A DNA stretch of 51,534 nucleotides from Candidatus Parcubacteria bacterium (GTDB lineage Bacteria; Patescibacteriota; Minisyncoccia; UBA6257; 2-01-FULL-56-20), in NCBI GenBank assembly GCA_027450205.1, contig DAIDJL010000004.1, positions 268,413 to 319,946 of the forward strand, in the 5' to 3' direction. The notes beneath the pieces were generated by a model. It saw only the letters and a list, made by a program, of their open reading frames with translations, made no database searches and was not told where the DNA came from. Of the stretch, positions 19,131-41,024 are shown in pieces (the stretch's first letter is position 1; every line of letters starts with the position of its first letter). A program made the position numbers and the translations under genes.

Positions 19131-19205
19131 CTTCTTTTAAAAGGGATCCCGGAGCAGTGAAAGCGGTGGGGTCGGCAGACCGGAACGCCATCCTGTTAAA
19201 AGAAG
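19131..19205 (-). repeat. Hairpin element downstream of secY (10-bp arms, structured apical domain)
   Basis: cttcttttaa ... GGTC-GGCA-GACC-GGAACGCCATCC ... ttaaaagaag. Confidence 0.65.
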
Positions 19206-19212
19206 AATTGTC

Positions 19213-20484
19213 TTATTCGATTCCCTCATACTCCCTGACTGTCAACTGCGAATCCACCTGCCGCATGGTCTCCAAAGCGACCGCAACAACGATAAGAAGC
19301 GCGGTGCCGCTGATCGTAAGCACGGAAACGCCCGTAACCGACTGCACGATAATCGGCAAAATCGCAATAAGACCAAGGAATGCCGCGCCGAAGAAGGTGA
19401 TGCGGTTCACGACACCATGAAAATATTTCTCGGTGCTGTCACCAGGACGAATGCCCGGCACAAATCCTCCGCTCTGCTGAAGATTCTTGGCAACCTCTTC
19501 CGGATTGAACGTGATCGCGGTATAAAAATACGTGAAGACGAACACCAGTAAAAAGTAGAAGATGCCGTAATAAAGCTGGTTCGCCACGAAGCCTTGCGCG
19601 AAGTCGCTCACCCTGAGCCCCCATGTCGGCGAGAAGAGCACCACGATCTGCGCGAGGAACTGCGGGAAGAGCAATACCGAGATCGCGAAAATAAGCGGAA
19701 TCATGCCCGCCTGGTTCACCTTGAGCGGGAGGTAGCTCTGGGCGCCGCCGTACATCTTGGTGCCCCGTACGCGCCGCGCGTACGCAACCGGTATTTTTCG
19801 TTCGCCTTCATTAAGATACACGACGCCGGCGATGAGCAATAATCCGATGACGATGAACCCTATATATGAGGTAAGAAGCTGGGCGGTGTATGACGCGAAC
19901 GCGAGTCCGACGCTCGACGGGAGGCGGCTAATGATACCCGCCAAAATAATAAGTGAAATGCCGTTGCCTACCTTCTCCTCCGTAATGAGCTCACCGAGCC
20001 AGAGCGCGATCATGGATCCACACGTGATCACGATGACATTACGAACGAGACTGAAGGTGTCGGGCCGCGCGATAACACCCTGCGAGATGAGCAGGCTTAA
20101 AAAGCCGTATGACTGCACGAATGCGAATGGCACGGTGAGCAGGCGCGAATATTGGTTGAACTTTGCCTGGCCGCGCGCGCCCTCCTCGTAATACATCGCC
20201 TTCATCTTCGGGAAGATGATCGTCATAAGCTGCATGACGATGGTGGATGTAATGTACGGACCGACGCCAAGCATGACCACCGAAAGGTTCGCAAGGCCGC
20301 CGCCGGAAAAGAAGTTAAGGAACCCAAGGAGCTGGTTGGAGTTGAAATAGTTCTGGAGCGCCGCCGCGTCCACGCCGGGGATCGGAATGGCGGCCAGCAC
20401 GCGATATGCAACCAAAAGTCCGAGAACAATGAGTATCTTGTTCCGGAGCTCCTTTACTTTGAATATCTGTAAAAATCTTTCCAT
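19213..20484 (-). CDS. secY: Preprotein translocase subunit SecY
   Basis: IPIPGVDAAALQNYF; LSVVMLGVGPYITSTIVMQL; VNQAGMIPLIFA. Confidence 0.98.
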   Translation of the reverse strand: MERFLQIFKVKELRNKILIVLGLLVAYRVLAAIPIPGVDAAALQNYFNSNQLLGFLNFFSGGGLANLSVVMLGVGPYITSTIVMQLMTIIFPKMKAMYYEEGARGQAKFNQYSRLLTVPFAFVQSYGFLSLLISQGVIARPDTFSLVRNVIVITCGSMIALWLGELITEEKVGNGISLIILAGIISRLPSSVGLAFASYTAQLLTSYIGFIVIGLLLIAGVVYLNEGERKIPVAYARRVRGTKMYGGAQSYLPLKVNQAGMIPLIFAISVLLFPQFLAQIVVLFSPTWGLRVSDFAQGFVANQLYYGIFYFLLVFVFTYFYTAITFNPEEVAKNLQQSGGFVPGIRPGDSTEKYFHGVVNRITFFGAAFLGLIAILPIIVQSVTGVSVLTISGTALLIVVAVALETMRQVDSQLTVREYEGIE

Positions 20485-20512
20485 TTCTTTATCTTACATT
20501 AAACAAAGGAAG

Positions 20513-20581
20513 AAACGAATATGACCAGTCCTTTGCCGAACGGTCCATCTTGGGGAGGCAAAGGACTGGTCATATTCGTTT
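20513..20581 (-). repeat. Hairpin element between rplO and secY (25-bp perfect arms, 19-nt loop)
   Basis: aaacgaatatgaccagtcctttgcc / gaacggtccatcttgggga / ggcaaaggactggtcatattcgttt; overlaps the rplO stop codon. Confidence 0.9.
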
Positions 20582-21023
20582 AAGATACCACCTTTCCCCC
20601 GGCCTTTTCGATCTTTTCTTTGGCGCTGGCAGACACCTCAAAACCGGTGACCGAGATCGGGAATGCGATATCCCCGGCGGCAAGGATCTTTACTTTACCC
20701 TTATAATCCTTTTTTAACAATTTTATGCTGCGCAGAAACGCATAGCCGACCTCCAGCGGTACGCCGGCCTTGACATGCGGCTTAAGGCTGTTTGAAAGCA
20801 TGCCGAGGTTGAACACGACCGGGACGTCGCGCTTGGGTTTATTGCGGAACCCCCGCATCTTCGGGATCTTAAGGATAATGTCGCGCTCCGCCGGGCGGAT
20901 ACGATGGCCTGAACGGGACCGCTGTCCTTTTACGCCGCGGCCGGAATAACTGCCGCGCTTGCCGCTGCGGCCGATACGCTGGAGGCGCTTGGCGCGAATA
21001 GGAGTTTTTGAATGAAGTTTCAT
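20580..21023 (-). CDS. rplO: Ribosomal protein uL15
   Basis: KRIGRSGKRGSYSGRGVKGQRSRSGHRIRPAERDIILKIPKMRGF-type sequence. Confidence 0.96.
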   Translation of the reverse strand: MKLHSKTPIRAKRLQRIGRSGKRGSYSGRGVKGQRSRSGHRIRPAERDIILKIPKMRGFRNKPKRDVPVVFNLGMLSNSLKPHVKAGVPLEVGYAFLRSIKLLKKDYKGKVKILAAGDIAFPISVTGFEVSASAKEKIEKAGGKVVS

Positions 21024-21045
21024 GATAGTGATAGTGGTCAGAAGG

Positions 21046-21546
21046 TTATGCCTTTAATTTCTTTAGCGCCTCAATGGTCGCCATCGCATTCGTGAGCTTG
21101 TTCGGCGTACGGCCAAGGATCTTTGCCGTTGCGTCCTTGATGCCGGCGAACGCAAGCACAAAACGCACCGAACCGCCGGCGCGGAGGCCATGCCCCTTGC
21201 TGGCCGGCTTGATCATCACCTTGGCGGCGCTGTACTTCGCGTTCACCTCGTGCGCGATGGTGCGGCCGTCCTTAAGGCTGATCGTCAAAAGATTCTTCTT
21301 TGCGTCGGCTTTTGCCTTTGCCACTGCCTGCTGGACGTCAAGACCTTTCGCCACGCCGATGCCGATGCGGCCGCGCTCGTCGCCGATCACGATCGTGACG
21401 CGGAAACGGAAGCGCTTGCCTCCGGCGACGACGCGGGTCACGCGGCGATTGTCCAGCACGCGCTCTTTGAACTCCTCGCGCACCACAGGGCGATCGCGAT
21501 CCGGCCGTCTATTGAATGTTCTTGGCGATGATGTCTTTTCTGCCAT
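21046..21546 (-). CDS. rpsE: Ribosomal protein uS5
   Basis: VREEFKERVLDNRRVTRVVAGGKRFRFRVTIVIGDERGRIGIGVAKGLDV. Confidence 0.97.
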   Translation of the reverse strand: MAEKTSSPRTFNRRPDRDRPVVREEFKERVLDNRRVTRVVAGGKRFRFRVTIVIGDERGRIGIGVAKGLDVQQAVAKAKADAKKNLLTISLKDGRTIAHEVNAKYSAAKVMIKPASKGHGLRAGGSVRFVLAFAGIKDATAKILGRTPNKLTNAMATIEALKKLKA

Positions 21547-21550
21547 GATT

Positions 21551-21922
21551 TTATATAGTAAGTCCGCCTTTTTTTGCTCCATCGACGAAGCTCTTTACCC
21601 GGCCGTGGAACTTATAAGAGCGGCGATCGAACACTGCGGATTTGATGCCCAGCTCCCCTGCTTTCTTTCCGATGAATTCGCCGACGGAAAACGCGTCCGC
21701 GGTTTTATTCCCTTTAACCGCTCCCTTTGCAGCCTTCTCCATAGCAAAGCTCGATGCAGAAAGAAGCGTATTCCCCTTTACATCATCAATAAGTTGCGCG
21801 TAGAAATAGCGGTTACTGCGTCGTACGGCAAGGCGCGGGCGCACCGCGGTGCCGGAAATCGCGGCGCGAACGCGTGCAACGCGGCGGATCCTTTTTTGGT
21901 TGAGTTTCTTTTTTGCTTTCAT
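21551..21922 (-). CDS. rplR: Ribosomal protein uL18
   Basis: RRVARVRAAISGTAVRPRLAVRRSNRYFYAQLIDD. Confidence 0.94.
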   Translation of the reverse strand: MKAKKKLNQKRIRRVARVRAAISGTAVRPRLAVRRSNRYFYAQLIDDVKGNTLLSASSFAMEKAAKGAVKGNKTADAFSVGEFIGKKAGELGIKSAVFDRRSYKFHGRVKSFVDGAKKGGLTI

Positions 21923-21939
21923 GGAAATGGATAATGATA

Positions 21940-22482
21940 TTATGCCGCAGCGGCGCCAGCCTTCTTACCAACCTTTCTGCGGATGACCTCGCCCTGATAA
22001 TGTATGCCCTTGCCCTTGTATGGCTCCGGTTTCTTAAGTGCGCGGATCTCTGCAGCAGCCTGGCCGACGGCGTCTTTATCAATGCCGGTCACCTTGATGA
22101 TGTTCTTATCAACCGTGATCGCAACATTCTCCGGGATCGGCAAACGGACCGGCAGTGCGTATCCCAGGAAAAGCACGAGCTCCTTCCCTTCCACCGTGGC
22201 GCGATAACCGACGCCTTCAATCTCAAGGATCTTGGTGAATCCGATGGTCACGCCTTCGATCGCATTCTTTGCAAGCGACCAGATCGTTCCCTGGAGAGCG
22301 GTCGTCTTTATTTCCGGCGCGGCGCTGACCCAAAAGTTCCCGCCCTCGGTCCTGACATCAACTCCGGCGGGAAGCGCTATTTTCAACTCCCCTTTCGGCC
22401 CTTTGATCGTCAATATACCGCCATTCTGGACGAGGGTCGCGCCTTCGGTGATCGCAATAGGTTTTTTGATAAGTCGGCTCAT
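21940..22482 (-). CDS. rplF: Ribosomal protein uL6
   Basis: MSRLIKKPIAITEGATLVQNGGILTIKGPKGEL...KPEPYKGKGIHYQGEVIRRKVGK. Confidence 0.97.
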   Translation of the reverse strand: MSRLIKKPIAITEGATLVQNGGILTIKGPKGELKIALPAGVDVRTEGGNFWVSAAPEIKTTALQGTIWSLAKNAIEGVTIGFTKILEIEGVGYRATVEGKELVLFLGYALPVRLPIPENVAITVDKNIIKVTGIDKDAVGQAAAEIRALKKPEPYKGKGIHYQGEVIRRKVGKKAGAAAA

Positions 22483-22498
22483 GGGATTCAGTGATAAA

Positions 22499-22879
22499 TT
22501 ACCAGATTTCAAAAAGATATTCTCCGCCGACCTTCTGTTTTTTCGCCTCGGAACCGGTCATAATGCCCTTCGAGGTCGAAAGCATGGAAAGCCCGTGGCC
22601 CCGCTTGACCGTCGGAAGGCTGCGATAGTCCGCATACGTATGGCGGCTCGGCTTGCTCATGATCTTGAAATCGTTTACCGCCGCTTCTTTGTTTTTATAG
22701 GCAAGGCGCACTACGATCATGCTTTTCTTTCCCACCGCCTCCTTTTCCGCGCTTTTAACATACCCGTGCTCAACAAGTTTTGTGAGTATCGCAAAATCCA
22801 TCTTCGTGAACGGGAAGGTTATTTTGTCTTTCTTTGCCCGTGTGGCATTTTTAAGTTCGGAAAGGATGTTGTAGTGCAT
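22499..22879 (-). CDS. rpsH: Ribosomal protein uS8
   Basis: LSELKNATRAKKDKITFPFTKMDFAILTKLVEHGYV...GHGLSMLSTSKGIMTGSEAKKQKVGGEYLFEIW. Confidence 0.95.
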   Translation of the reverse strand: MHYNILSELKNATRAKKDKITFPFTKMDFAILTKLVEHGYVKSAEKEAVGKKSMIVVRLAYKNKEAAVNDFKIMSKPSRHTYADYRSLPTVKRGHGLSMLSTSKGIMTGSEAKKQKVGGEYLFEIW

Positions 22880-22883
22880 AAGA

Positions 22884-23069
22884 TTACCAGCTGGCTTTCT
22901 TTATTCCCGGGATCTGCTGAGCAGTCGCCATTTCACGGAAGCAGATGCGGCAGAGCCCGAAGTCGCGCATATAGCCGCGCTTGCGACCGCAACGGAAACA
23001 GCGCCGCACGATGCGGGTGGAATACTTTGGTCGCTTTTTGCTTCGCGCGATGACGGACTCTTTTGCCAT
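22884..23069 (-). CDS. rpsN: Ribosomal protein uS14, zinc-binding type Z
   Basis: RRCFRCGRKRGYMRDFGLCRICFREMATAQQIPGIKKASW. Confidence 0.97.
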   Translation of the reverse strand: MAKESVIARSKKRPKYSTRIVRRCFRCGRKRGYMRDFGLCRICFREMATAQQIPGIKKASW

Positions 23070-23070
23070 A

Positions 23071-23619
23071 TTATTTCTTCTTTCGCTTTCCTTTTGCCGC
23101 CGGCGCCTCTTTTTTCATCGGCACGCCGAACGCGGCGAATTTCTCCACCGACCTCTCGCGGCTCCTCGTCTTCGGCACAATGCTTACACCGATCGAGAAC
23201 GATACCGGGGACTTTTCCGGAGATATCTCCGGGAACACCAGGTGGTCGCGGACACCTACATTAAGGGTGCCGCCCTGATCGATCGCGGAATGCTCCAAAC
23301 CGGCAAAGTCTCGAACGCGAGGTAACACTATTGTAATCAATCGCTCAAAAAAATCAACCGCTTTCTCGCGGCGCAGCGTCACGCGAAGACCCACGATCTG
23401 CCCCTCGCGCACTTTAAATCCGGCGATGGATTCCTTCGCTTTACGGAGCTGCGGCTGCTGGCCGGTGATCGCGGCAATGTCACGCATCACCTGCGGAAGG
23501 ATCTTTTCCTCAAAGTTCGGCTGCTGGCCAAGGCGGCCGACGCCCGCGTCAACGACGACCTTCTCCACGAAGGCGCGCATTGCTTTTCTATCGGTATGTG
23601 TTTTTTTGATTTCAGCCAT
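23071..23619 (-). CDS. rplE: Ribosomal protein uL5
   Basis: ITGQQPQLRKAKESIAGFKVREGQIVGLRVTLRREKAVDFFERLITIVLPRVRDF. Confidence 0.97.
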   Translation of the reverse strand: MAEIKKTHTDRKAMRAFVEKVVVDAGVGRLGQQPNFEEKILPQVMRDIAAITGQQPQLRKAKESIAGFKVREGQIVGLRVTLRREKAVDFFERLITIVLPRVRDFAGLEHSAIDQGGTLNVGVRDHLVFPEISPEKSPVSFSIGVSIVPKTRSRERSVEKFAAFGVPMKKEAPAAKGKRKKK

Positions 23620-23634
23620 GGCCGTATTATTTAT

Positions 23635-23946
23635 TTAGAGCGTTGCCTTGCATTTTTTGCAATAGCGGACCTTGCGATTGCCCTCCATGCGGCCACCGAT
23701 ACGGGTCGGTGCTTTGCAGTTCGGACAGATGATCATAACCTTGGAAACGGCGAGTGGGCGCGATACCGCGACGACCTGGCCCTTTTCTCCCTGCTTGCGC
23801 GGCTTTGAACGCTTTTTGAACACGTTCAATCCGTCGATCTGGATGCGGTCATCTTCCGGGAACGCCTTTAAAACCACCCCGGTCTTTCCGCGGTCTTTTC
23901 CCGATAAGATCTTTACGTTGTCTCCTTTCTTGAGTTTCATGGCCAA
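23635..23946 (-). CDS. rplX: Ribosomal protein uL24
   Basis: KLKKGDNVKILSGKDRGKTGVVLKAFPEDDRIQIDGLNVFKKRSKPRKQGEKGQ. Confidence 0.97.
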   Translation of the reverse strand: MAMKLKKGDNVKILSGKDRGKTGVVLKAFPEDDRIQIDGLNVFKKRSKPRKQGEKGQVVAVSRPLAVSKVMIICPNCKAPTRIGGRMEGNRKVRYCKKCKATL

Positions 23947-23959
23947 ATAATATTAGTTA

Positions 23960-24328
23960 TTAAACGATTTCTTCCGCCATGGTCATTAATTTTTCATAAC
24001 CCCTCTCTTTGAGCTCGCGCGGAAGCGGGCCGAAGATACGGGTCGCCACCGGCTCCTTTTTGGCATCGATCAGAATGACCGCATTCTCGTCAAAACGGAC
24101 ATAGGAACCGTCTTTCCGGCGAAGCGCGCTCTTGGTGCGAACCACCATTACCTTCACAACATCTTTCTTCTTTACCGTTTTGCGCGGCTCCGCGCTCTGC
24201 ACGGACGCGACAATGATATCCCCCACGCCCGCGTAACGGTGATGCGTACCGCCAAGAATGCGGAAACACCGCACCACCTTGGCGCCGCTGTTATCCGCAA
24301 CTTTGATTACCGATCGTTCTTGTATCAT
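23960..24328 (-). CDS. rplN: Ribosomal protein uL14
   Basis: MIQERSVIKVADNSGAKVVRCFRILGG...VRFDENAVILID...RIFGPLPRELKERGYEKLMTMAEEIV. Confidence 0.98.
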   Translation of the reverse strand: MIQERSVIKVADNSGAKVVRCFRILGGTHHRYAGVGDIIVASVQSAEPRKTVKKKDVVKVMVVRTKSALRRKDGSYVRFDENAVILIDAKKEPVATRIFGPLPRELKERGYEKLMTMAEEIV

Positions 24329-24347
24329 ACCAGAAAAATTATAGTGA

Positions 24348-24605
24348 TTATGCGATCTTATTTATGATCCTCCAGCGCTTTTCGCGCGAGAGCGGGCGGG
24401 ATTCCTCGATGGTCACCTTGTCTCCCATCTTATATTCATTATTCTCATCGTGCGCCTTGAACTTGGTCGTCACCTTATAGTACTTGAGATACTTCGGGTG
24501 CTTCTTAAGGCTCGCAACCGCAACCACGCGCGTCTTCATCATCTTATCCGAGACGACAACGCCGATGATCTTCCTTATTTTTTTGGTTTTTGGAGTCTGT
24601 GCCAT
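24348..24605 (-). CDS. rpsQ: Ribosomal protein uS17
   Basis: [64 protein letters not shown]. Confidence 0.96.
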
Positions 24606-24609
24606 AATA

Positions 24610-24813
24610 TTATGCTTTTGATGCCTGTTGCCGTATGAATGTTTTCGCGCGGGCGATCCCGCGGCGCGTCTGATGAAGCTCGTTCACATTCTTCACTTTT
24701 CCGGCCGCAAGGTCAAATCGCAATGTCCGCAACTTCTCAGCCGAATCAAGCACTATGCGCTCGAGTTCGCCAAGTGACTTGTTCTTCATTTCTTGTACTT
24801 CTTTTTTCTTCAT
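24610..24813 (-). CDS. rpmC: Ribosomal protein uL29
   Basis: [47 protein letters not shown]. Confidence 0.92.
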
Positions 24814-24830
24814 GGCTCTTTGGTGAAAAA

Positions 24831-25241
24831 TTATTTTACGATGACGCGGGTTTTTACCGGAAGCTTGAATGATGCAAGACGCAACGCTTCCTTGGCGCGC
24901 ACAAGCGTCACTCCGTCGATCTCGAACAGCACGCGGCCCGGTTTTACCGGAAACACATAGTGGTCAACGGATCCCTTTCCGCCTCCAAGTGTCTTTTCCG
25001 GCGCCTGCTGCGTGATCGGCTTGTCGGGGAATATACGGATCCAAAGGCGTCCATCACGCTTGAGGTAGTTCGTGATCGTCTTGCGCGCCGCTTCGATCTG
25101 GCGGGAATTCACCCATGCCGACTCCGTGGACTTCAATCCAAAAGAACCATAGCTCAACGCAAGCCCGCGCGTTTCAACCGTGCGCTTGCGGGAGCGTCCC
25201 TTTTGCCACTTGCGATGTTTTACTTTCTTTGGAAGAAGCAT
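24831..25241 (-). CDS. rplP: Ribosomal protein uL16
   Basis: MLLPKKVKHRKWQKGRSRKRTVETRGLALSYGSFGLKSTESAWVNSRQIEAARKTITNYLKRDGRLWIRIFPDKPIT. Confidence 0.97.
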   Translation of the reverse strand: MLLPKKVKHRKWQKGRSRKRTVETRGLALSYGSFGLKSTESAWVNSRQIEAARKTITNYLKRDGRLWIRIFPDKPITQQAPEKTLGGGKGSVDHYVFPVKPGRVLFEIDGVTLVRAKEALRLASFKLPVKTRVIVK

Positions 25242-25258
25242 GGTTTTTTAATCAAATA

Positions 25259-25978
25259 TTAATAGTTGGATGGAGCACGGCGGCGCGATTGGCGGCCGGC
25301 CTCTTCCTCCTGTTCCTTGGTGACTTTTTTGAAAACCTCTCCTTTATATATCCAAACACGGATACCGATCGTGCCGTACGTGGTGAACGCGGTCGCGGTG
25401 CCGTAATCGATGTCGGCGCGGAGCGTCTGCAGCGGCAAAGAACCTTTTGAAAGATGCTCATTGCGCGCGATCTCGTTCCCGTCCAGGCGGCCCTTCATTA
25501 AGATCTTCGCACCTTTGACATCGCGATTCTGCAAGATCTGCTCCAAATACTTCTTCATGGTGCGGCGGAAGCGGATACGCTTCTCCAGATCCCATGCGAT
25601 CTGCTGAGCAGTATAGCGGGCAGAAACATCCGAGCGCTTCAATTCCTCTACGTTCAAACTGAGCGCAACCTTGGAGCGGGTCTTGCGCACCTTCATGAGC
25701 GCGTCGACGACCGCCTTATTGAGATCTTCCATTCCTTTTCCTCCGCGGCCGATGATAAGGCCCGGCCGGGCGGCGCGGATGAACACGCGAAGGTTGCCCT
25801 GCGTGCGCTCGATCTCAATGGCGGCGACACCGGCAAGCGCGATCTTTTCATTGATCGTATTGCGGATCGCTTCGTCCTCTTCGAGGAATTTTGCATAGCC
25901 GCCCTTAAGGAACCAGCGTACGGGCCAGCCTTTTGAAACTCCCAAGCGATATGAATTTGGATTGATCTTTTGTCCCAT
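25259..25978 (-). CDS. rpsC: Ribosomal protein uS3
   Basis: MGQKINPNSYRLGVSKGWPVRWF...RPGLIIGRGGKGMEDL. Confidence 0.97.
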   Translation of the reverse strand: MGQKINPNSYRLGVSKGWPVRWFLKGGYAKFLEEDEAIRNTINEKIALAGVAAIEIERTQGNLRVFIRAARPGLIIGRGGKGMEDLNKAVVDALMKVRKTRSKVALSLNVEELKRSDVSARYTAQQIAWDLEKRIRFRRTMKKYLEQILQNRDVKGAKILMKGRLDGNEIARNEHLSKGSLPLQTLRADIDYGTATAFTTYGTIGIRVWIYKGEVFKKVTKEQEEEAGRQSRRRAPSNY

Positions 25979-25984
25979 GATATT

Positions 25985-26497
25985 TTATTCGCCTACCACC
26001 TTACGTCCGAACCGGCGCTTCCAGAATCCGGGGGTCTGCTTCGATCTCGGCGCTTCCTTCTCGGGAGTCTTTGGTTTCTTTGTTTTTGAACGCACATCCT
26101 CGCCCGGCGGGAGTTTCGTCTTCTTCGGCGGCACGATCGTAAAGCGCGACTTCAACTTTTCGTTGACACCCAGAACCATCGTGACATGGCTCATCTTTTT
26201 CTGAATGGGAGACGCGCTGCCGCGCGCGCGGGGAAGCATCCGCTTCAACATCGGGCCGCCGTCAACACGGACGCTCGAAACGAAAAGATGCTGAGGGTCA
26301 ACGGTCTTGCTATTTTTAGCATTCGCGACAGCCGAACGCAAGAGTTTCAACAGCACCTTTGAAGGCCGCCGCGTCTGCACGATCAATTGCGCTTCGGCTT
26401 CGTTCACCGGCAAACCTTTTATAAGGTCACCAACGCTGCGCACTTTGCGGGGCGCCTGGCGAAGGAAACTAAGTTTTGCGGTGTATTGCTTTTCCAT
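25985..26497 (-). CDS. rplV: Ribosomal protein uL22 with basic/Pro-rich C-terminal extension
   Basis: LSFLRQAPRKVRSVGDLIKGLPVNEAEAQL...VRVDGGPMLKRMLPRARGSASPIQKKMSHVTMVL. Confidence 0.95.
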   Translation of the reverse strand: MEKQYTAKLSFLRQAPRKVRSVGDLIKGLPVNEAEAQLIVQTRRPSKVLLKLLRSAVANAKNSKTVDPQHLFVSSVRVDGGPMLKRMLPRARGSASPIQKKMSHVTMVLGVNEKLKSRFTIVPPKKTKLPPGEDVRSKTKKPKTPEKEAPRSKQTPGFWKRRFGRKVVGE

Positions 26498-26502
26498 GGT
26501 TT

Positions 26503-26841
26503 TTATTTCTTAGCAGGCGCTGCCTTTGCGGCGGCGGCCTGGGTCTTGGCGGTCTCGGTAGCCTTTATCTCAAGCTCCTTCTGCATCTTGCCGCCGTGGC
26601 GGATGAACTTGCGGGTCGGGGAAAATTCTCCGAGGCGATGGCCAATCATTTCTTCCGTCACGCGCACTTCAACGTGCGTGCGGCCGTTGTGAACGCCAAA
26701 AACCTGTCCGACGAATTCCGGTGCGATCTCCGATGCGCGGGACCAGGTCTTGATGACCGTGCCGCTGCCGGACTTGGTATTCAAAACCTTCTTCATAAGC
26801 TTCGGATCGACGAACGGGCCTTTTTTGAGTGAACGTGACAT
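26503..26841 (-). CDS. rpsS: Ribosomal protein uS19 with Ala/Lys-rich tail
   Basis: [20 protein letters not shown]...[48 protein letters not shown]. Confidence 0.97.
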
Positions 26842-26858
26842 GGTAGTAAGGTTAAAAA

Positions 26859-27707: not shown

Positions 27708-27714
27708 TACCTTA

Positions 27715-27993: not shown

Positions 27994-28003
27994 GAAAATA
28001 ATA

Positions 28004-31748: not shown

Positions 31749-31806
31749 CCCTCAATTATATACCGCGCTCGGCATCGCCGACGATAGCCCATATATAGCA
31801 GGTAAA

Positions 31807-31908
31807 ATAAAACACCACTCTTGAGGGGAATCGCGGAGCCGCGTAGGCGGCGAGCGTTAGGGGGCGGCCAGCAGGCCGCAACCCGTCCCCGAGAGAGTGG
31901 TGTTTTAT
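31807..31908 (-). repeat. Hairpin element downstream of tuf (15-bp perfect arms, structured apical domain)
   Basis: ataaaacaccactct / agagtggtgttttat; GCGGCC-AGCA-GGCCGC internal hairpin; CGCGGAGCCGCG. Confidence 0.85.
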
Positions 31909-31913
31909 CTTGC

Positions 31914-33113
31914 CTACTTGATAATCTTCGTCACGACACCGGCGCCGACGGTCTTGCCGCCCTCGCGGATGGCGAAACGCATCTTGTCTTCCATCGCAAC
32001 CGGGGTGATGAGTTTGACCGTGATCTTGACCGTATCACCAGGCATGACCATTTCCATTCCTTCCGGAAGGGTCACCTCGCCCGTCACGTCCGTGGTGCGG
32101 ATGTAGAACTGCGGCTTGTAGCCCTTGAAGAACGGAGAGTGGCGGCCACCCTCTTCTTTTGAGAGCACATAGATCTCGCCCTCAAACTCCGAGTGCGGGG
32201 TAACGCTGCCCGGCTTTGCGAGCACCTGTCCGCGCTCCACGTCCTCTTTCTTGAGACCGCGGAGGAGCAAACCGGCGTTGTCGCCTGCCTGGCCTTCATC
32301 CAAGCTCTTATTGAACATCTCAATGCCGGTGACGACGGTCTTGGCGGTCGGCTTGAGACCGACAACCTCGACTTCCTCGTTCACTTTGACTTTGCCGCGC
32401 TCGATGCGGCCCGTAACGACCGTACCGCGGCCTTCAATGGAGAAGATATCCTCGATAGGCATAAGGAACGGCTTGTCCAATTCGCGGACCGGATCCGGGA
32501 AGAAGTCATCCATCGCTTTTACGAGATCCAGGATCGGCTTGGCATCCGGTGAATCGGCATCGGTCGCATTCAACGCTTTGAGCGCCGAACCGCGGATGAC
32601 CGGGGCGGTGTCGCCGGGGAAACCGTTCTTGGTGAGCAGCTCGCGGACCTCGGACTCCACGAGGTCGATCAATTCCGGATCATCCACCATGTCGCACTTG
32701 TTGAGGAACACAATGATCGAAGGCACGCCTACCTGACGGGCAAGCAGGATGTGCTCGCGAGTCTGCGGCATCGGGCCGTCGGTTGCGGCAACCACGAGCA
32801 CTGCGCCGTCCATCTGGGCGGCACCGGTGATCATGTTCTTGATATAGTCGGCGTGACCGGGAGCATCAACGTGCGCATAGTGGCGCTTCTCCGACTGGTA
32901 CTCCGAGTGGTGAAGGGCGATCGTGATACCACGCGCCTTCTCTTCCGGAGCGTTGTCGATCTGATCAACCTTCTCTTCTTTCTTTGCCCAACCCTTCAAA
33001 AACAGAACGTGGGTGATGGCCGCCGTCAAGGTGGTCTTGCCGTGGTCAACATGGCCGATCGTGCCGACGTTCAGGTGCGGCTTGGACCGGTCAAATTTTT
33101 CTTTTTCTGCCAT
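31914..33113 (-). CDS. tuf: Elongation factor Tu
   Basis: [66 protein letters not shown]-type sequence. Confidence 0.99.
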
Positions 33114-33235: not shown

Positions 33236-33265
33236 ATTGTAAAGCAAAGTTGCCGATTTTGTCAA
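33236..33265 (-). promoter_or_regulatory. tuf promoter TTGACA-N18-TACAAT followed by CTCTTGGTA
   Basis: -35 33260-33265, -10 33236-33241; leader contains ACAGC/GCTGT-T5 hairpin. Confidence 0.7.
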
Positions 33266-33373
33266 ATTGGACGGGGAAAACCTGGGGATTTCCCGTAGCT
33301 TCCATCTGCGCCTTCCCGTAACCGATTTACTTTTCCGCCCGGTTGCGATATATTTCCCGCGGGAGGAGCTCAT

Positions 33374-33694
33374 ATGAGCCTTAAGGAACGCCGCAAGAAA
33401 TTCAAAAAACTGCTGATCCGGCACTGTGCCGGATCGTACAGCATCATCGGGATGCGCGCCGCGTTGTACGACGATGAACGCATTGAAGTGTCGATCGACA
33501 TACGAAGCAAGCAGTACGGCAAGCGATTTGTAAAATTGGCCAAGAAGATCAGGCTTATGGAGGCTGACATCAGAAAAAAGTTCTCCGGATGGAACGTCCG
33601 CGTGGAAATATGGCCCGATGAAAACGCGCTGGCCAAGAAGGGCAAGCCATTCCGGGGAAAGAAAATCGTTCTTTCGCATCCCCATAAACTCTAA
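33374..33694 (+). CDS. Hypothetical basic protein, 106 aa, SD-led monocistronic gene
   Basis: GGGAGGAG before ATG; terminator AGATCGCA...TGCGATCTTTCTT after. Confidence 0.7.
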   Translation: MSLKERRKKFKKLLIRHCAGSYSIIGMRAALYDDERIEVSIDIRSKQYGKRFVKLAKKIRLMEADIRKKFSGWNVRVEIWPDENALAKKGKPFRGKKIVLSHPHKL

Positions 33695-33786
33695 GATCGT
33701 TTTACCGCCGCAACAGATCGCAGCCCCCGGGTTGCGATCTTTCTTTAGATAATTAGATAAAGAGGGTTTTATCAACTTCTTCCGTT

Positions 33787-34431
33787 TTATTTCTCCAGGG
33801 AGATCATCTCCAGCGATATTTTCCCTTCGCGTAAAACCTCCACGCGCCCGCGGCGAACGCGCACGATCGTGGATGGCAGTGATCGCGTGAGTGTGCCCGC
33901 GTCCAGATACATATCCGGGCCGGCAACGGCGCGGCGGGCAACGGCGCGAGCCGCGCGCCGAGCGCTGCCACCCAACTGCCGCTTTACTGCGCGAACCGTA
34001 AAACATCCCGGCTTGCCGGACAGGTTCGCCGACGTGGCAATGATGGGCGCCCCCGTAAGGATGGCGAGCCGCGCAGCAACAGGATCCGCCGACCAGCGCA
34101 CCGCGACGCGATCCCCGCCAACGGCCAACGCAACGCGTCGTGACCGCGCCTTGAGCACGATGGCGAGCGGTCCCGGCCAATACCGCCGGGCAAGCGATAG
34201 CTCCGCCCGCGAGAATAAAAAGAATTTCCGCGCCTGCGCAAAGCTCCCCACGATCACCGGCAATTGCTTCTCCAACGAGCGCCGCTTGATCGCGTACACC
34301 TTTCGCACCGCGGATGCATCAAGCACCGACGCCGCGAGCCCATAGAGCGTCTCCGTCGGAAACACCACCGTGCCTCCCCCGGCCAGCATCGCCCCCGCCC
34401 GCGCGATCAATTCCGATGAGACCTTCTTCAT
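33787..34431 (-). CDS. tsaC: Threonylcarbamoyl-AMP synthase (Sua5/YciO/YrdC/TsaC family)
   Basis: GGTVVFPTETLYGLAASVLDASAVRKVYAIKRRSLEKQLPVIV; APIIATSANLSGKP. Confidence 0.93.
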   Translation of the reverse strand: MKKVSSELIARAGAMLAGGGTVVFPTETLYGLAASVLDASAVRKVYAIKRRSLEKQLPVIVGSFAQARKFFLFSRAELSLARRYWPGPLAIVLKARSRRVALAVGGDRVAVRWSADPVAARLAILTGAPIIATSANLSGKPGCFTVRAVKRQLGGSARRAARAVARRAVAGPDMYLDAGTLTRSLPSTIVRVRRGRVEVLREGKISLEMISLEK

Positions 34432-34462
34432 CCGCTCAGTATAGCAACTATCTAAAACAAAA

Positions 34463-34490
34463 ATAGCCGCCGAAGCAGCTATTTTTATAC
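34463..34490 (-). terminator. Hairpin terminator between metK and tsaC
   Basis: aaaatagc...gctatttttata. Confidence 0.65.
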
Positions 34491-34614
34491 CAAGTCGGAA
34501 ATTTATGATCCGTAATTCACCAGATCACCATCCCTGCGATCATTTTATTACACCCAGCAACAAAGTCAAAACTCTTTTAATGATTTTTTAATCTTCGGCA
34601 AACAACAGCAAAAA

Positions 34615-35628
34615 TTATCCCCAGCTGAATTCCCTCCCAAAGTGTCCCCAAGCGGCGGTGTCCGCCCAGCGCGCGGAGTCGAACTTCAAAAGCGTGGCAA
34701 TGCCACGAGGCGAAAGATCGTAGCCCTCCACAGGGACAACGCGCACGCCACTAGCGCCCGCAGAACCTCCACCAGAACCTTCGTCTAGCTCCGCCACCGC
34801 CATCACCGGCTCCGGCTTCCCGATGGCATACGCGAGCTTTACGCGCACCGCGCTGGCGGTGGCAAAGCGCCCGAGGTAATCCACCGCGATGCGGCGGGCG
34901 ATGTACGCACCCGAGCGGTCCACTTTGGTAAGATCCTTGCCAGAGAACGATCCCCCGCCAATGCCGATCTCCGGCCCGTAGTTGTCGATCACGATCTTGC
35001 GCCCGGAGATCCCCGAGTCCGCATCGAATCCGCCAAGCGACCACTCGCCCGCGGGATTGATCAAATATTCGTCGGCCGTAATGGAAGAGCGTACAAGCGC
35101 TTCGAGCTCCGCGGTCGGCGCGTTCTGAAAGCTCGCCACCACGCACGTCGCGCGATCGCCATCGAGCGTCACCTGCGTCTTCCCGTCAAACGGATAACGG
35201 GCATACAACTTTCGGCACAGCTCTCGCGCGAGCACGTACTCCAAAGGCATGAATGACGGCGTCTCCCGCGTGGCATAGCCGATCATGATTCCCTGATCTC
35301 CCGCGCCGCCCGTATCCACGCCGCGCCCGATCTCCGGGCTCTGCGCCACAAGATTCACGTGCACCGCCACGCGTGCGCCCTCTTCGCCTCCCAACGCCGA
35401 TCGCACCACAGCCGGGATATCTACCGTCGCCGCGCTCGTCACCTCCCCCGAAATCGTGATGTGCCCGTGGCCGCCCATCACCTCCGCCGCCACGCGGCTT
35501 AATGGATCCCCCGCCAGATACGCATCTAGAATCGAGTCCGCAATGAGATCGCACAATTTATCCGGATGCCGTGGCGAAACAGCTTCTGCGGTCCTTTGGG
35601 CCGCTTCCAAACCATTTTTTATTTGCAT
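34615..35628 (-). CDS. metK: S-adenosylmethionine synthetase
   Basis: AEAVSPRHPDKLCDLIADSILDAYLAGDPLSRVAAEVMGGHGHITISGEV; GAGDQGIMIGYA; GGGSFSGKDLTKVDRSGAYIARRIA. Confidence 0.96.
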   Translation of the reverse strand: MQIKNGLEAAQRTAEAVSPRHPDKLCDLIADSILDAYLAGDPLSRVAAEVMGGHGHITISGEVTSAATVDIPAVVRSALGGEEGARVAVHVNLVAQSPEIGRGVDTGGAGDQGIMIGYATRETPSFMPLEYVLARELCRKLYARYPFDGKTQVTLDGDRATCVVASFQNAPTAELEALVRSSITADEYLINPAGEWSLGGFDADSGISGRKIVIDNYGPEIGIGGGSFSGKDLTKVDRSGAYIARRIAVDYLGRFATASAVRVKLAYAIGKPEPVMAVAELDEGSGGGSAGASGVRVVPVEGYDLSPRGIATLLKFDSARWADTAAWGHFGREFSWG

Positions 35629-35666
35629 AATTAGGTTAATTGATTGATTAATGTATTTTGATCATC

Positions 35667-35820
35667 GACCAAGAACAAAAACAACCGCCTACACGGCGGT
35701 TGAGCATATGAAGCATCTTCCCCGTGAAGGGTTGGAGTTCGCACCGTATCGAATCCTCGATCGGTTGCGGGCGGAGCATCGGGCCAAATCCCTTAGCATC
35801 TCCACTCTCTTGATGTGCTT
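35667..35820 (-). promoter_or_regulatory. SAM-I (S-box) riboswitch plus expression-platform terminator upstream of metK
   Basis: Minus: AAGCACATCAAGAGAGTGGAGATGCTAAGGGATTTGGCCCGATGCTCCGCCCGCAACC...GGTGCGAACTCCAACCC...GGGGAAGATGCTT; terminator AACCGCC-GTGTA-GGCGGTT-GTTTTTG. Confidence 0.93.
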
Positions 35821-35874
35821 ATTCGGTTGTAGAATTAGTATATCACAAAATTAAGGCCCATAGAGAAACCAACC

Positions 35875-36267
35875 TCAAAGCAATATTTTATATTTTGGAT
35901 AATTATCCTTCACTAGCTGCTTCCATAATGCGGTTTCGTTGCCACTCCCCAAATCGGTCTTCTTATAAACCAACAATACGTGCACCATACACGTGTCGCT
36001 ATGAACTGCCACGATACACCGGTTGCCCGATGCGTGACGAGACTCTTTGGTACCCGCGACGCGAAATTCTGTTTTGCAGATCCGCACCGGTGCCTGATCG
36101 GTGATTGTCTCCGCAACTGAAGTTTCGAGAAGTGAATCAAAGCGTTTTAACTCGGCGTCGATAGCGGTCCAGGTCGTCATCCAGGCACCTTTATATTTTT
36201 TCTCGAAAGATTTTATGAAGTGCCGCTCTGCGAATGGTTCAATAAGGACCCCATAGTTAGTAGACAT
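35875..36267 (-). CDS. Putative toxin of a Panacea-type TA pair (RelE/HigB-like size)
   Basis: MSTNYGVLIEPFAERHFIKSFEKKYKGAWMTTWTAIDAELKRFDSLLETS...; start overlaps the end of the antitoxin ORF. Confidence 0.65.
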   Translation of the reverse strand: MSTNYGVLIEPFAERHFIKSFEKKYKGAWMTTWTAIDAELKRFDSLLETSVAETITDQAPVRICKTEFRVAGTKESRHASGNRCIVAVHSDTCMVHVLLVYKKTDLGSGNETALWKQLVKDNYPKYKILL

Positions 36268-36940
36268 TTTCTGGGTCCTCCTGAGTGATGAGTTCATACG
36301 GGATGACCTCATCATCCGCGCAGAGTTTGTACGGGAGCTGATTATGGGTGAAGTCAACGATCTCCTTTGTTCGTTTATTCTTCCACCGATCCGACACTTT
36401 CTTAATAAAAGCTGACTCCTCAGGGTTTAGCATCGCGAGCGGACGCTTCTGCGAACCGCGATTTTCAGAAATAAGGAATGCATCTCCGGATTGTTCGATG
36501 GAAATCCTCCCACCCTCGCTCAATTCCTCTATCGCGCGGAAATATGCATCCGGCACCGGCCCGAATTGGAATTTGCGATAAGACATTCCGCTCATAGGAG
36601 AAAGATGGTCATAGAACCAGCCGAAATCAGAAAGATAAAGAAGCTTAGCGAGTTTTGTTTTAGTGATCTTCCCATCTGAATGACCGCTATTACGCAAAAA
36701 CGCTAAAACCATATCCTTATATTTTTCGTAGTTAGGAATAATGCCTTTCTCCATTTCTTCCATGCTGATACCCAAAATATCGGCTATTTTTTGAGCCTCT
36801 CCTAAGGTAAGTTCCCGCTTCCCCTGCTCCACGGCAATATATGAAGTCCGTGCGATACCGAGTCTTTTTGCCATGTCGAGCTGAGAAAGACCCTTGAACA
36901 ACCTTATTTTCCTTATTGTCTTAAATATTTCTTTGCTCAT
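36257..36940 (-). CDS. HTH plus DUF4065 (Panacea/SocA-like) antitoxin
   Basis: KIRLFKGLSQLDMAKRLGIARTSYIAVEQGKRELTLGEAQKIADILGIS HTH; KITKTKLAKLLYLSDFGWFYDHLSPMSGMSYRKFQFGPVPDAYFRAIEEL. Confidence 0.85.
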   Translation of the reverse strand: MSKEIFKTIRKIRLFKGLSQLDMAKRLGIARTSYIAVEQGKRELTLGEAQKIADILGISMEEMEKGIIPNYEKYKDMVLAFLRNSGHSDGKITKTKLAKLLYLSDFGWFYDHLSPMSGMSYRKFQFGPVPDAYFRAIEELSEGGRISIEQSGDAFLISENRGSQKRPLAMLNPEESAFIKKVSDRWKNKRTKEIVDFTHNQLPYKLCADDEVIPYELITQEDPENVY

Positions 36941-37056
36941 ATTCACATGATATCCCCAAGTGTGTCATTTTGTCAAGCATTGCAATGTCCGTATTTTCGA
37001 CATAGGATTACACGATAATAACACCATTTATGTAACGACAATGCTATGATTTACCT

Positions 37057-37335
37057 ATGGGATATCCAGTTCAGCAGGATCCATTTTCAAGCTTCTTTGC
37101 CCTCCTCACATCCCCTATTGGCTGGCTTATTATTCTCGCGGTAATAATACTGATATTCCTCATCATCCGGGAAATTCTCTGTTGGTATTGGAAGATCAAT
37201 GAAGGCCTCGACTCCATGAACGACATAAAAAGAGAAATTGCCACTACAAACACTCTCCTCCGCAACCTCGAGCGTGGCAACGCGCAACCTCAGCCAGCCG
37301 AAATAAAACCACCGACAACGCCTCCGCAGGAGTAA
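37057..37335 (+). CDS. Small single-TM protein
   Basis: LTSPIGWLIILAVIILIFLIIREILCWYW; ATG 6 nt after TATGAT. Confidence 0.65.
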   Translation: MGYPVQQDPFSSFFALLTSPIGWLIILAVIILIFLIIREILCWYWKINEGLDSMNDIKREIATTNTLLRNLERGNAQPQPAEIKPPTTPPQE

Positions 37336-37375
37336 ACCGTCGTGATATACGCAACCCAAAACGAGAATTTATAAA

Positions 37376-38467
37376 CTACTTCCCCGACTTCATCCTATTA
37401 TCCTGCCTGCATAGCATCTGGCAATTTTCAGCAATAGTTTTACCGCCCTCATGCCAAGGAGTAATATGATCCGCTTCCATTTCTTCGATGGCAAAATGCT
37501 TTTTGCATTTTACGCAAATACCATTCTGCCTTTCATACGCCTCTCTTTTTTGATTATCCGAGAATTCTCTGATATTCAAAAATCTTTCATCTTGAGTTAA
37601 AACATATGGATAGATGCCAGACTTTTTCGTGACATCTTCGTCCACCATTAACTTTTTAACCTCGTCTCCGAGTTTCTTAACGCTCAGCTTCTTATCCTTG
37701 AATTTGTTATACAACTCTCCCCATTCCACACCACTCATTTCCCTCCGATAATCTGGGAATGTCGCCCGCACCCACGCTATTACATCCTGGAAATATTTCC
37801 ACAATTTATCGGCATTCGCATCGTGCTGATGCTTGGCCATATAATCTTCAATTTTGCCGTTATTAATCCACGAGAGCGCTGTCTCCAAATATTCCTGCCG
37901 GATCGGTGTTCCGAGAACGAGCTTCCCGCCATCATTCGCCAAAAGATATGCCGCGCAGTTTGATTTGCTAAATTTAAGTTTTGCATCCGAAAGCCACGGC
38001 CCCGTGTAAACCGCATTGCGCAATTCTTGCTCGGTCAATTTTTCGCCGGCTATATTGATGATTCTAAACCAATCCAATCGCTCTTTATCTGTACCCTCAC
38101 AAAAATAGATCATCAATTCATAATCTAGAATCACTTTTTGCTCTTCATCAGTAAGATTATGGAAAAATCGATCGTTGAGCGAAAAATCTCCATTTACATA
38201 CTGTCCAATACTAATAGTGCGCTGTTGACCATCTAAAACTTCAAAATTTCCCTGATCTGTCTTCACCCAATACATCACATTCAGCGGAAAATTCTTTTTG
38301 ATCGTTTCAATCACCGCATCTCGCTGCTTTCCCGTATAAACAAACTCCCGCTGATATTTCGGACGAATATCAAGTTTCCCGCCATAAGCAACCACACCCT
38401 CTTCGGCGCTGTCTTTATAACCAGCAATCACCTCCCGCACTGAAATCCTATGCAGATCAATTTTCAT
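37376..38467 (-). CDS. DUF262 (ParB/GmrS-like) plus C-terminal HNH nuclease
   Basis: FEVLDGQQRTISIGQYVNGDFSL; RQNGICVKCKKHFAIEEMEADHITPWHEGGKTIAENCQMLCRQDNRMKSGK. Confidence 0.9.
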   Translation of the reverse strand: MKIDLHRISVREVIAGYKDSAEEGVVAYGGKLDIRPKYQREFVYTGKQRDAVIETIKKNFPLNVMYWVKTDQGNFEVLDGQQRTISIGQYVNGDFSLNDRFFHNLTDEEQKVILDYELMIYFCEGTDKERLDWFRIINIAGEKLTEQELRNAVYTGPWLSDAKLKFSKSNCAAYLLANDGGKLVLGTPIRQEYLETALSWINNGKIEDYMAKHQHDANADKLWKYFQDVIAWVRATFPDYRREMSGVEWGELYNKFKDKKLSVKKLGDEVKKLMVDEDVTKKSGIYPYVLTQDERFLNIREFSDNQKREAYERQNGICVKCKKHFAIEEMEADHITPWHEGGKTIAENCQMLCRQDNRMKSGK

Positions 38468-38468
38468 A

Positions 38469-39509
38469 TTATTTTTTTGATTTTCTCTTTTTTATAAATA
38501 ATCGCTTAAATTTTTCCTTGCCGTTTAAAATCGAACTCCTGCCATATATCCCCGCAGGGTCCTGATCTCTGTCACGGTTCGAGCCAAGCAGCTCAAATTG
38601 ATTAGGGTTATATTTGTCCAAAAATGTAATCGGCACGCCCATCACTCCATCATAATCCATTGGAATATCAGCCACCACATCGACATTGATTGCGTCATAA
38701 TTATCATATTTCGGATATTCCTCTGCCGTATATTTTTTATACATCACAAACTCTTCGTGACGCTTGCTAGTATCGAGATTTGTATACCAACAAGCCATAA
38801 TATGCTTTAATTTTTTACCATCAACAATTTTTTCATACTTCTCACCTTCTGGAACTAAAAGCCACATATCACTATTAATATTGCGATAGCCCAACCATAA
38901 CCGGTTAGCTTTTATATGCTTAAAAACGTCTTTATAAGTAATTGAATTTTTATTGCCGATAATCAGAAATTTTTTATCGAATTCCATGAGCTGAGCAATG
39001 TAATCTCCAAAAAGGGAAAATGGAGGATTCGTGCAAATAATATCCGCTTCCTTAAGAAATCCTACACATTCATCGCTTCGAAAATCACCAGTGCCTTGCA
39101 AGGGAGTGGCGATGTTTTTGTCATGCCTCAACAAGAACCTAACGTCGTCAAGATTTATGGAACCGTCTCCATTAGAGTCAGGAACTTCATTTATCTCGAT
39201 TTTGAACGGTTCCTTACCGGATGGCTTTAGTCCTTCTACTTCAAATAACGGCAACTGTCCACCCGCGATAGGTGATTTCGTGTAGCTTGTGGTAATAAGC
39301 TTTTTCAGTCCCAACGCCCTAAAATTAGCAGCAAAATATTTAAAGAAATTACTTTCAAAGGGGTCGTCGCAATTGCAATATACAATTTTCCCGCGAAACT
39401 GTTCTTTATAGTGCTTTAATTCCTCTTCAATATCGACGAGTTGAGTATAGAATTCATCATTCTTTACTTTGGCCGCCCTATTGAGGCTTGAATTTGATTT
39501 GGCTTTCAT
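38469..39509 (-). CDS. EcoRI-family adenine-specific DNA methyltransferase
   Basis: KNDEFYTQLVDIEEELKHYKEQFRGKIVYCNCDDPFESNFFKYFAANF; DIICTNPPFSLF. Confidence 0.9.
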   Translation of the reverse strand: MKAKSNSSLNRAAKVKNDEFYTQLVDIEEELKHYKEQFRGKIVYCNCDDPFESNFFKYFAANFRALGLKKLITTSYTKSPIAGGQLPLFEVEGLKPSGKEPFKIEINEVPDSNGDGSINLDDVRFLLRHDKNIATPLQGTGDFRSDECVGFLKEADIICTNPPFSLFGDYIAQLMEFDKKFLIIGNKNSITYKDVFKHIKANRLWLGYRNINSDMWLLVPEGEKYEKIVDGKKLKHIMACWYTNLDTSKRHEEFVMYKKYTAEEYPKYDNYDAINVDVVADIPMDYDGVMGVPITFLDKYNPNQFELLGSNRDRDQDPAGIYGRSSILNGKEKFKRLFIKKRKSKK

Positions 39510-39528
39510 AAAATCCTAGGCTTATCAT

Positions 39529-40302
39529 TCAAGCCCCAGCGGGTGATTTTGTGGCGAGTTTCTCACCCCTCTCCACTTCCGGCATATCTTCCAATAATTT
39601 TTCCGTTAGCTTATCGGTTTCTATCCAACGAATTGTAAGATTAATTAAATCTTTCAAATCATCGAGATCTTTCCCCTCCCAGATTCGTTCATAATGCACC
39701 TCATCGTTTCCGAGCCACGCTGCGCGTTGTGCGACGAGCTTTAGTTGGGCATGGTCAACGCGATTTTTGATTACCGTCCCCAATGATTCCTTTTTTATCT
39801 TTTCGGCTTCAGCTGGAGTTTTGCTAATAACATAATCTTTAATGAGAAATTCTAAAGCTTTCCGATAACCAGCACCGCAAATAATATCTAACCCCTCAAT
39901 CTCGGCGGTATAAGATTGATTGTAGATCTCAATAAAGTTCGGCGATATTGCTGCAATAATCTCTGAAAAATTTATCTCGATAGGGTCGGCCGGCTTAGCT
40001 TCAGCAAATTCATAAATTCCTGCGGGTTGTTTGTAATAAGCGATAAATGGATTTCGACAGCTTTCGTCTGGACAGCGGTAAATCATCCGTAAAGGATAAG
40101 AAACCGATGGATTTAAAAAGCCAGTTACCATTACGGCGGTGATTTTGTTATGACACAAAGGACAAGTTCCTGGATTTTTATCGATATTAACGCTCGTCCC
40201 CTGTCCCAGCTGATTGATGCAATTAACAAGTATCATTGCGATAATTCTAATGCTCTCAAGCGAATAACTCAACCTCCTCAACGTAGTCTTATCTAAAACC
40301 AA
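39529..40302 (-). CDS. DUF4145-like protein with zinc-ribbon-like Cys residues
   Basis: CPLCHNKI ... YRCPDESCRNPFIAYY ... YRKALEFLIKDYV...LKLVAQRAAWLGNDEVHYERIWEGKDLDDLKDLINLTIRWIE. Confidence 0.75.
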   Translation of the reverse strand: MVLDKTTLRRLSYSLESIRIIAMILVNCINQLGQGTSVNIDKNPGTCPLCHNKITAVMVTGFLNPSVSYPLRMIYRCPDESCRNPFIAYYKQPAGIYEFAEAKPADPIEINFSEIIAAISPNFIEIYNQSYTAEIEGLDIICGAGYRKALEFLIKDYVISKTPAEAEKIKKESLGTVIKNRVDHAQLKLVAQRAAWLGNDEVHYERIWEGKDLDDLKDLINLTIRWIETDKLTEKLLEDMPEVERGEKLATKSPAGA

Positions 40303-40308
40303 TGATCA

Positions 40309-40346
40309 AGAAAATATGCCGGCCGCTGGCGGGATATTTTCTTAGG
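40309..40346 (-). repeat. Hairpin upstream of the DUF4145 gene
   Basis: aagaaaatatgccggcc gct ggcgggatattttctt. Confidence 0.6.
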
Positions 40347-40455
40347 GTCTCCGAATTAGTTCCGCAACTATCATCGCTATCTCTCAAGCACTACCATCGT
40401 CCATCCATAATCTAAGCGACTCAAGCACTCGTTAGGTCTTCGGAATTTTTACTCC

Positions 40456-40725
40456 CTAATATCTCGGCAATGAAAGGAGGTTGTCACCCCAATCACCATC
40501 TGCATACGTTTGAATGTATGCGTCCCGTCCCGCTGGTCGACGGACATAGACATATGCACGCAACCCTTTTGCGATATCGTAAACATAGAAATCATATAAT
40601 TTCGCATCTATGTCGTTGATAACGGCTTGCCGAGGAAACGATTGGCCATCAATCATAACCGCACTGATGTGCTCGTGGCTATTATGACCTTCCACCATAT
40701 GCACCTTCGTTATTCTTCTATCCAT
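40456..40725 (-). CDS. DUF3892-like small protein
   Basis: RRITKVHMVEGHNSHEHISAVMIDGQSF...AYVYVRRPAGRDAYIQTYADGDWGDNLLSLPRY. Confidence 0.65.
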   Translation of the reverse strand: MDRRITKVHMVEGHNSHEHISAVMIDGQSFPRQAVINDIDAKLYDFYVYDIAKGLRAYVYVRRPAGRDAYIQTYADGDWGDNLLSLPRY

Positions 40726-40941
40726 TCTAACTGTTTTATTCTCTGCCTTTCGGCGGATTAATTTTTATTGCCTTAGGAGGACGGACCTTTAAAATTTCAC
40801 TCCCTAGCAGCTTTAAGGATAATCGAAAATTAAGGCGTGTCAAGAGTTACGTTTGTGCATAAATTGTTAACTTCCCGGCTCAAAAACAATGTGCCGCAGA
40901 TCCCGATGGAACGGATCGCTAAAACATAATACGGGCACTTG

Positions 40942-41024
40942 CTTTTGAAAGGTGTCTCGGAAGCGCGAAGGCGGCGAGAGCCAAGGCGGCCAGCCGGCAG
41001 GCTGGAACGCCGTCCTTTCAAAAG
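40942..41024 (-). repeat. Hairpin element downstream of fusA (11-bp perfect arms, structured apical domain)
   Basis: cttttgaaagg / cctttcaaaag; CAGCC-GGCA-GGCTG internal hairpin followed by GAACGCCGTCC. Confidence 0.8.

Follow-up and report, generated by a model that had tools for sequence, protein, structure and literature searches.

Three long hairpins, located after the secY, tuf and fusA genes in a 51,534 nt stretch of a Candidatus Parcubacteria bacterium genome (assembly GCA_027450205.1, contig DAIDJL010000004.1; hereafter, the window), are members of a dispersed repeat family, here called family A. A conserved core of about 63 nt, folding as a three-way junction, is enclosed by arms of 20-46 bp, which are often perfectly paired and are unrelated from one copy to the next. 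On the gene side, the arm is the native end of the gene, in many cases with the stop codon and the last codons, and the far arm is an inverted copy of it, a relation overlooked in the initial annotation of the window. We consider it rather probable that family A is a non-autonomous insertion element of Paceibacteria, which obtains its gene-specific arms by snap-back copying and whose hairpin then serves as a 3'-end structure.

Hairpins of the window and their common core

The three elements are listed below (position 1 is the first letter of the window). The core sense corresponds in all of them to the + strand, i.e. it is antisense to all three genes.

19117 to 19219, + strand: degenerate family-A element after secY; arms 19117-19144 and 19192-19219, core remnant 19145-19191
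31792 to 31923, + strand: family-A element after tuf; arms 31792-31829 and 31886-31923, model match 31821-31894, 73.3 bits
40942 to 41024, + strand: family-A element after fusA; arms 40942-40952 and 41014-41024, model match 40945-41021, 87.6 bits

The secY arms are 28 nt long and 82% complementary, the secY stop codon (19213-19215) lying inside the gene-side arm. Those of tuf (38 nt, 79% complementary) span the tuf stop codon (31914-31916), and the fusA element has perfect 11 bp arms, the fusA stop being found at 41039-41041. Folding was compared with that of 200 dinucleotide shuffles: the secY and tuf elements were better than all of them (z -10.2 for tuf), and the fusA element than 198. All three hairpins are confirmed where they had been initially annotated.

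A BLAST comparison of the 65 nt fusA interior with the 860 kb genome of the window (G000) revealed near-identical interiors elsewhere, within wholly different, mostly perfectly complementary arms. The three-way junction was derived from eight gap-free copies, which also constitute the first covariance model: P1 is formed by the gene-specific arms, P2 follows the pattern CTC-GGA-stem-GNAG-stem-GA-GAG, and P3 the pattern GGCG-G-stem-AGNA-stem-AA-CGCC. A second model was built from 49 copies, including fusA and excluding tuf and secY. It recovers the common interior proposed for the three hairpins, with the scores listed above for fusA and tuf and just 19.8 bits (E 0.0026) for secY, because in the latter the P2 hairpin and the outer P3 stem are eroded.

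Covariation was evaluated on 49 gap-free copies. Double changes are found at 24 of 27 pairs, and the cells showing them are 339, against 103 +/- 10 in shuffled and at most 69 in slid controls. The covariation score is 0.678 (0.218 shuffled, at most 0.124 slid), and standard pairs represent 95.2% of pair cells, compared with 70.7% after shuffling. Unpaired core positions are mostly conserved above 90%, and the stems vary freely. The covariation of the tetraloop stem, already noticed in the window, becomes overwhelming with more copies.

Such covariation need not imply an RNA function. Only 1.8% of core pairs are G-U (31/1682), against 6.8% in 68 tRNAs from the same loci (99/1449); as the tRNA pairs, taken from ARAGORN, apparently include standard pairs only, the G-U fraction alone is comparable. 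G-U is not significantly commoner than A-C within the core (31:21, p = 0.21), so that the tolerance of G-U and avoidance of A-C typical of a functional RNA are not seen, whereas covariation exceeds both controls. The scarcity of G-U pairs suggests that the stems may owe more to DNA pairing or copying than to a function as RNA: the two positions of a pair change together with hardly any G-U intermediate, as they would if one side were rewritten from the other. Core pairing may be kept at the DNA level, or through copying of one side from the other, and a role as RNA is not proven by these data.

The core-sense strand, which carries the G.A internal loops, gives the more stable fold in 46 of 49 copies as RNA and in 44 as DNA. 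The P2 GNAG loop loosely resembles the known ultra-stable DNA GNA loops (PMC4686876), which is a hint only; a kink-turn reading of the same loop was dropped, the bulged bases being too few. A scan of the window with 4227 Rfam families at the gathering threshold returned only tRNAs, and at relaxed E-values nothing close to a gathering score was found over the elements. A long-P2 variant (gcttggtc...) occurs in G000 at L192:1275-1419 and L207:12443-12603, and similar ones at L047, L048, L229 and L231 in other genera.

Arms are inverted copies of gene ends

In 75 of 82 copies the arms match over 18 bases or more, many being 100% identical over 25-45 bp; in 40 of the 82 they reach at least 18 bases at 90% identity or better. 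For 50 of the 82 copies the strand opposite to the core has, within 60 nt, the end of a tRNA or of a gene with 100 or more codons, at a median distance of 27 nt. Many arms run past the stop codon into coding sequence and, beside tRNAs, the perfect part mostly stops no more than about 3 nt from the tRNA end. Only about 7 complementary bases per side are coded by the element itself (TTGAGGG/CCCGAAA or GAAAGG/CCTTTC).

The direction of copying can be read most clearly at secY. In G003, perfect arms (39/39 bp) cover codons and the TAA stop, GGTATCGAATAA; G005 contains an inverted copy of its own, different codons and TAG, GATAGAATAG; the G000 copy is old and diverged. No element is found at secY in G001, G004, G006 and G007, and in G001 and G006 an 11 bp terminator is present. 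The C-terminal residues of SecY are identical in all of them, from which it follows that the gene side is native and the far side copied.

Empty orthologous sites were also observed. Upstream of metG (named from its sequence), G003 has perfect 45 bp arms, including 24 coding nt; the same flanking genes are separated in G000 by a plain gap of less than 90 nt, with no hairpin. At a second G003 site, after a 694-codon gene, G000 has the same flanking genes and a gap of about 20 nt, again with no hairpin. After rplL a family-A element occurs in four relatives, and a different 31 bp hairpin in G000; among 10 G000 orthologues of element-bearing genes, rplL is the only one with a long gene-end hairpin. 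Taken together, insertion and inverted copying are well supported.

In two convergent gene pairs of G003 (L099 and L078), the two genes terminate at a shared, copied stop codon; these sites look as if the inverted copy had overwritten the C-terminus of the neighbour. At L095:2262-2350 (G004:C36:2861-2949) the arms are mismatched and resemble those of two distinct tRNA-linked copies, one each, as though a recombination within the core had joined them.

Distribution of the family

Genomes were drafts, one per species. The eight-copy model, in the covariance search that had been suggested for this genome and related Patescibacteria, identified 16 copies in G000. All of the seven other genus members carry the family, with 1-33 copies each, and altogether it is present in 15 of 41 genomes searched among relatives. 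By the second model, 21 of the 286 class genomes sampled were found to carry it, with a patchy distribution and arms that are again site-specific. A scan of named genomes gave matches only in metagenome-assembled genomes (MAGs) of Paceibacterota/Parcubacteria and in two MAGs titled 'bacterium'. Plasmid records produced only chance GC matches, and viral contigs no matches.

Cores from the same genome can be 98.4% identical, while their arms are only 20-32% alike, which is the chance level. For 32 of 58 copies the nearest core relative is within the same genome, against 13.9 expected. Perfect inverted repeats (arms of at least 18, loop 8-130) number 11 in 440 kb of G000, 7 of them with the family-A core or its long-P2 variant, and 19 in 220 kb of G003 (contigs partly picked for elements), 15 with the core; none is found in 391 kb of G001, which has three weak copies. 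The initial proposal of a dispersed REP- or MITE-like element specialised for gene 3' ends is borne out by these further copies and by their strong covariation.

Other apices with long arms

Further features of the window are listed below.

3017 to 3099, + strand: perfect 31 bp hairpin with a different 21 nt apex, beginning within the rplL (L7/L12) stop codon
10472 to 10595, + strand: possible decayed relative near tRNA-Thr; 25 nt arms 88% complementary, core match 10.6 bits, E 1.2, not significant
20513 to 20581, + strand: family-B hairpin between rplO (L15) and secY; perfect 25 bp arms, 19 nt apex GAACGGTCCATCTTGGGGA
45184 to 45252, + strand: family-B hairpin immediately after tRNA-Ala; apex GAACGGTCATCTGCCTGGA, arms 84% complementary

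Family B, with a much smaller apex of 19 nt, counts five copies in G000 and none in 40 relatives. Its arms are unrelated between copies and perfect over 25-27 bp in three of them. Together with the different rplL hairpin of G000, they indicate that the arm-making process is shared by more than one apex.

Other hairpins of this kind were observed. At L191:18947-19079 (G000) perfect 20 bp inverted repeats surround an apparent tRNA gene, as if the tRNA were the apex. A perfect 32 bp hairpin with a 26 nt apex lies at L258:707-796 (G007:C4), where a reverse transcriptase motif precedes it by a few hundred bases, and three more long-arm hairpins, with apices of 17-25 nt, occur at L287 and L281 in G003, where they may represent a private apex family.

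Proposed mechanism

In the proposed mechanism, the core of about 63 nt, with some 7 mutually pairing bases per side, would insert about 20-40 nt beyond the end of a gene or tRNA, its folded strand being antisense to it. At insertion or during later repair, a new 3' end would fold back onto the complementary termini of the element and copy the adjacent gene end for about 20-40 nt, often through the stop codon. The product would be gene end, element and inverted gene end, i.e. a target duplication that is inverted instead of direct as usual. We infer snap-back synthesis as the copying step from this arrangement, which would fit a strand extended from the gene side, folding back and copying itself; template switching is able to make perfect inverted copies in a single event (PMC8794818).

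The long hairpin would then act as a 3'-end structure, providing termination and/or end protection, a role that would account for the long persistence of some copies. On the gene-sense strand, 32% of copies have a T-rich end (6 of 8); the corresponding values are 5% at random positions and 7% on the other side, and some copies therefore probably end transcripts. Most copies lack it, 22 of 50 have a downstream gene in the same direction, and some elements are inside apparent operons (rplO, family B, secY, family A, adk). The association with terminators suggested by the initial annotation may hold for part of the family, and a 3'-end or partial-terminator role, our best guess for the function, is perhaps somewhat less probable than its absence.

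Several observations weigh against the proposed mechanism. A Y1 transposase, candidate for the mobilising enzyme, is absent from all 8 genus genomes, control genomes being positive. With one genome per species compared, copying at insertion is not separable from re-copying within an old element. Two copies in a distant genome are in sense orientation. Old rplL copies keep co-varying arms across species, which selection alone would also fit. Inverted copying is not strictly tied to the family-A core, as family B uses another apex, and in G023 (L138) the end of fusA, AAGAAGCGCTAG included, is present as a 41 bp inverted copy around an unrelated 107 nt loop.

A more specific proposal, which we regard as doubtful, is a new mode of mobility, in which a DNA or cDNA hairpin of about 63 nt would insert at transcript ends and self-prime back along its target, possibly by means of a resident reverse transcriptase (RT). 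Within the genus, the five genomes that have 9-33 copies were found to contain RT genes, and none was found in the three that have 1-3 (exact p = 1/56, uncorrected, two families tested). This small association, which involves RTs of at least two kinds, is a lead and not a result. Those of G000 and G003 belong to diversity-generating retroelements (DGRs; visible variable and template repeats, LPLGNLTSQ motif), and those of G002, G004 and G007 are of another type; no NCBIfam RT family scored above cut-off, and PADLOC returned general RT models only. The G000 DGR (L250; G000:C6, about 14,400-16,700) comprises variable region, template repeat, Avd-like protein and RT (LPLGNLTSQ), and two family-A elements lie some 2-3 kb away from it; G003 has another DGR (L255). 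The possibility that the element is a DGR target was rejected, as no element follows the G000 variable region.

Alternative explanations

The elements might simply be long intrinsic terminators evolved in place, with stems kept perfect by template switching, which creates and repairs such stems (PMC8794818), and a shared apex, a binding loop for protein or RNA that gene conversion has spread. Their location at transcript ends, the enrichment of gene-sense T-rich ends and the co-variation of old rplL arms in four species agree with this. The ordinary terminators of the genus, however, have stems of 10-11 bp and lie outside coding sequence, whereas the element arms copy codons and stop codons; moreover, long-arm hairpins are missing from 391 kb of G001, and copy number varies from 1 to 33 by amplification within genomes, so that we hold this explanation to be unlikely. 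If the core were instead a small mobile element targeting the loop of a pre-existing terminator, the arms would be the old terminator stem. Terminator-like location and T tracts fit, and hairpin DNA recognition has precedents in group IIC introns and DGRs (PMC3240598). Yet both empty orthologous sites checked are without a hairpin, one having just 20 nt between genes, rplL alone among the 10 G000 orthologues has a long one, and arms pass stop codons into coding sequence: this makes it highly improbable.

Nearly as improbable is a cis- or trans-acting structured RNA, in which the core-sense strand, transcribed antisense to the gene, would be a regulator or a processing signal. Conserved loops, G.A internal loops, strong covariation and the more stable fold of that strand (46/49) are in its favour; the G-U figures (1.8% against 6.8% in tRNAs, and 31:21 relative to A-C) and the lack of an Rfam match speak against it. 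The structured RNA of the initial annotation is likewise only a possibility, the pairing being perhaps maintained at the DNA level. Finally, the hairpins could be artefacts of assembly or amplification, i.e. chimeric snap-back reads in metagenomes. Assemblies are drafts and some copies are close to contig ends, but the MAGs come from several independent studies, the core is conserved, spacing and orientation to genes are fixed, and diverged old copies and old sites common to several species exist; we find this scarcely credible.

Relation to known systems and significance

Several known systems share features with family A. REP, BIME and REPIN sequences, associated with RAYT Y1 transposases, are also short dispersed palindromes of gene 3' regions with lineage-specific copy number. 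The arms are the conserved part of REP elements; in family A, on the contrary, each site has arms of its own and the conserved part is the apex, and no RAYT/Y1 transposase accompanies it in the genus. Miniature inverted-repeat transposable elements (MITEs) are likewise short, non-autonomous repeats amplified in genomes, but family A is without conserved long terminal inverted repeats and its target is duplicated inverted, outside the element. Group IIC introns, which target terminator stem-loops, similarly link insertion to structured DNA at transcript ends; family A has neither intron nor intron-encoded protein, and a 63 nt core lies inside the hairpin.

The DGR target hairpin or cruciform (BPP-1), linked to RT-driven insertion, is also a DNA hairpin at a gene 3' end with free stem and fixed loop (PMC3240598). 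It has a 7-10 bp stem and a GRNA tetraloop on the sense strand, 4-34 bp after the variable region (PMC3240598), whereas family A is a three-way junction with 20-46 bp arms and GNAG/AGNA loops on the antisense strand, and follows ordinary genes and tRNAs with no tie to a variable region. Template-switch hairpins resemble it as perfect inverted copies made at once, but they lack a dispersed conserved core and do not target gene ends systematically (PMC8794818). Mitochondrial hairpin-forming elements are repetitive, mobile and intergenic, those of Allomyces being without flanking duplications; unlike in family A, gene-specific copied arms are not reported in the portion of the source consulted (PMC2800124).

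A described patescibacterial hairpin family, or an inverted target duplication, was not found in the open-licence literature (subscription journals and preprints being outside the scope). To our knowledge, insertion elements duplicate their target directly or not at all. A family leaving behind the end of the gene itself in inverted form would be a new insertion signature. Were the new mode of mobility true, each insertion would be an inverted target duplication building its own gene-specific hairpin arms. The family would represent a natural source of perfect long hairpins and of ready-made 3' ends, and the element would offer a way to hand the stop codon of one gene to its neighbour.

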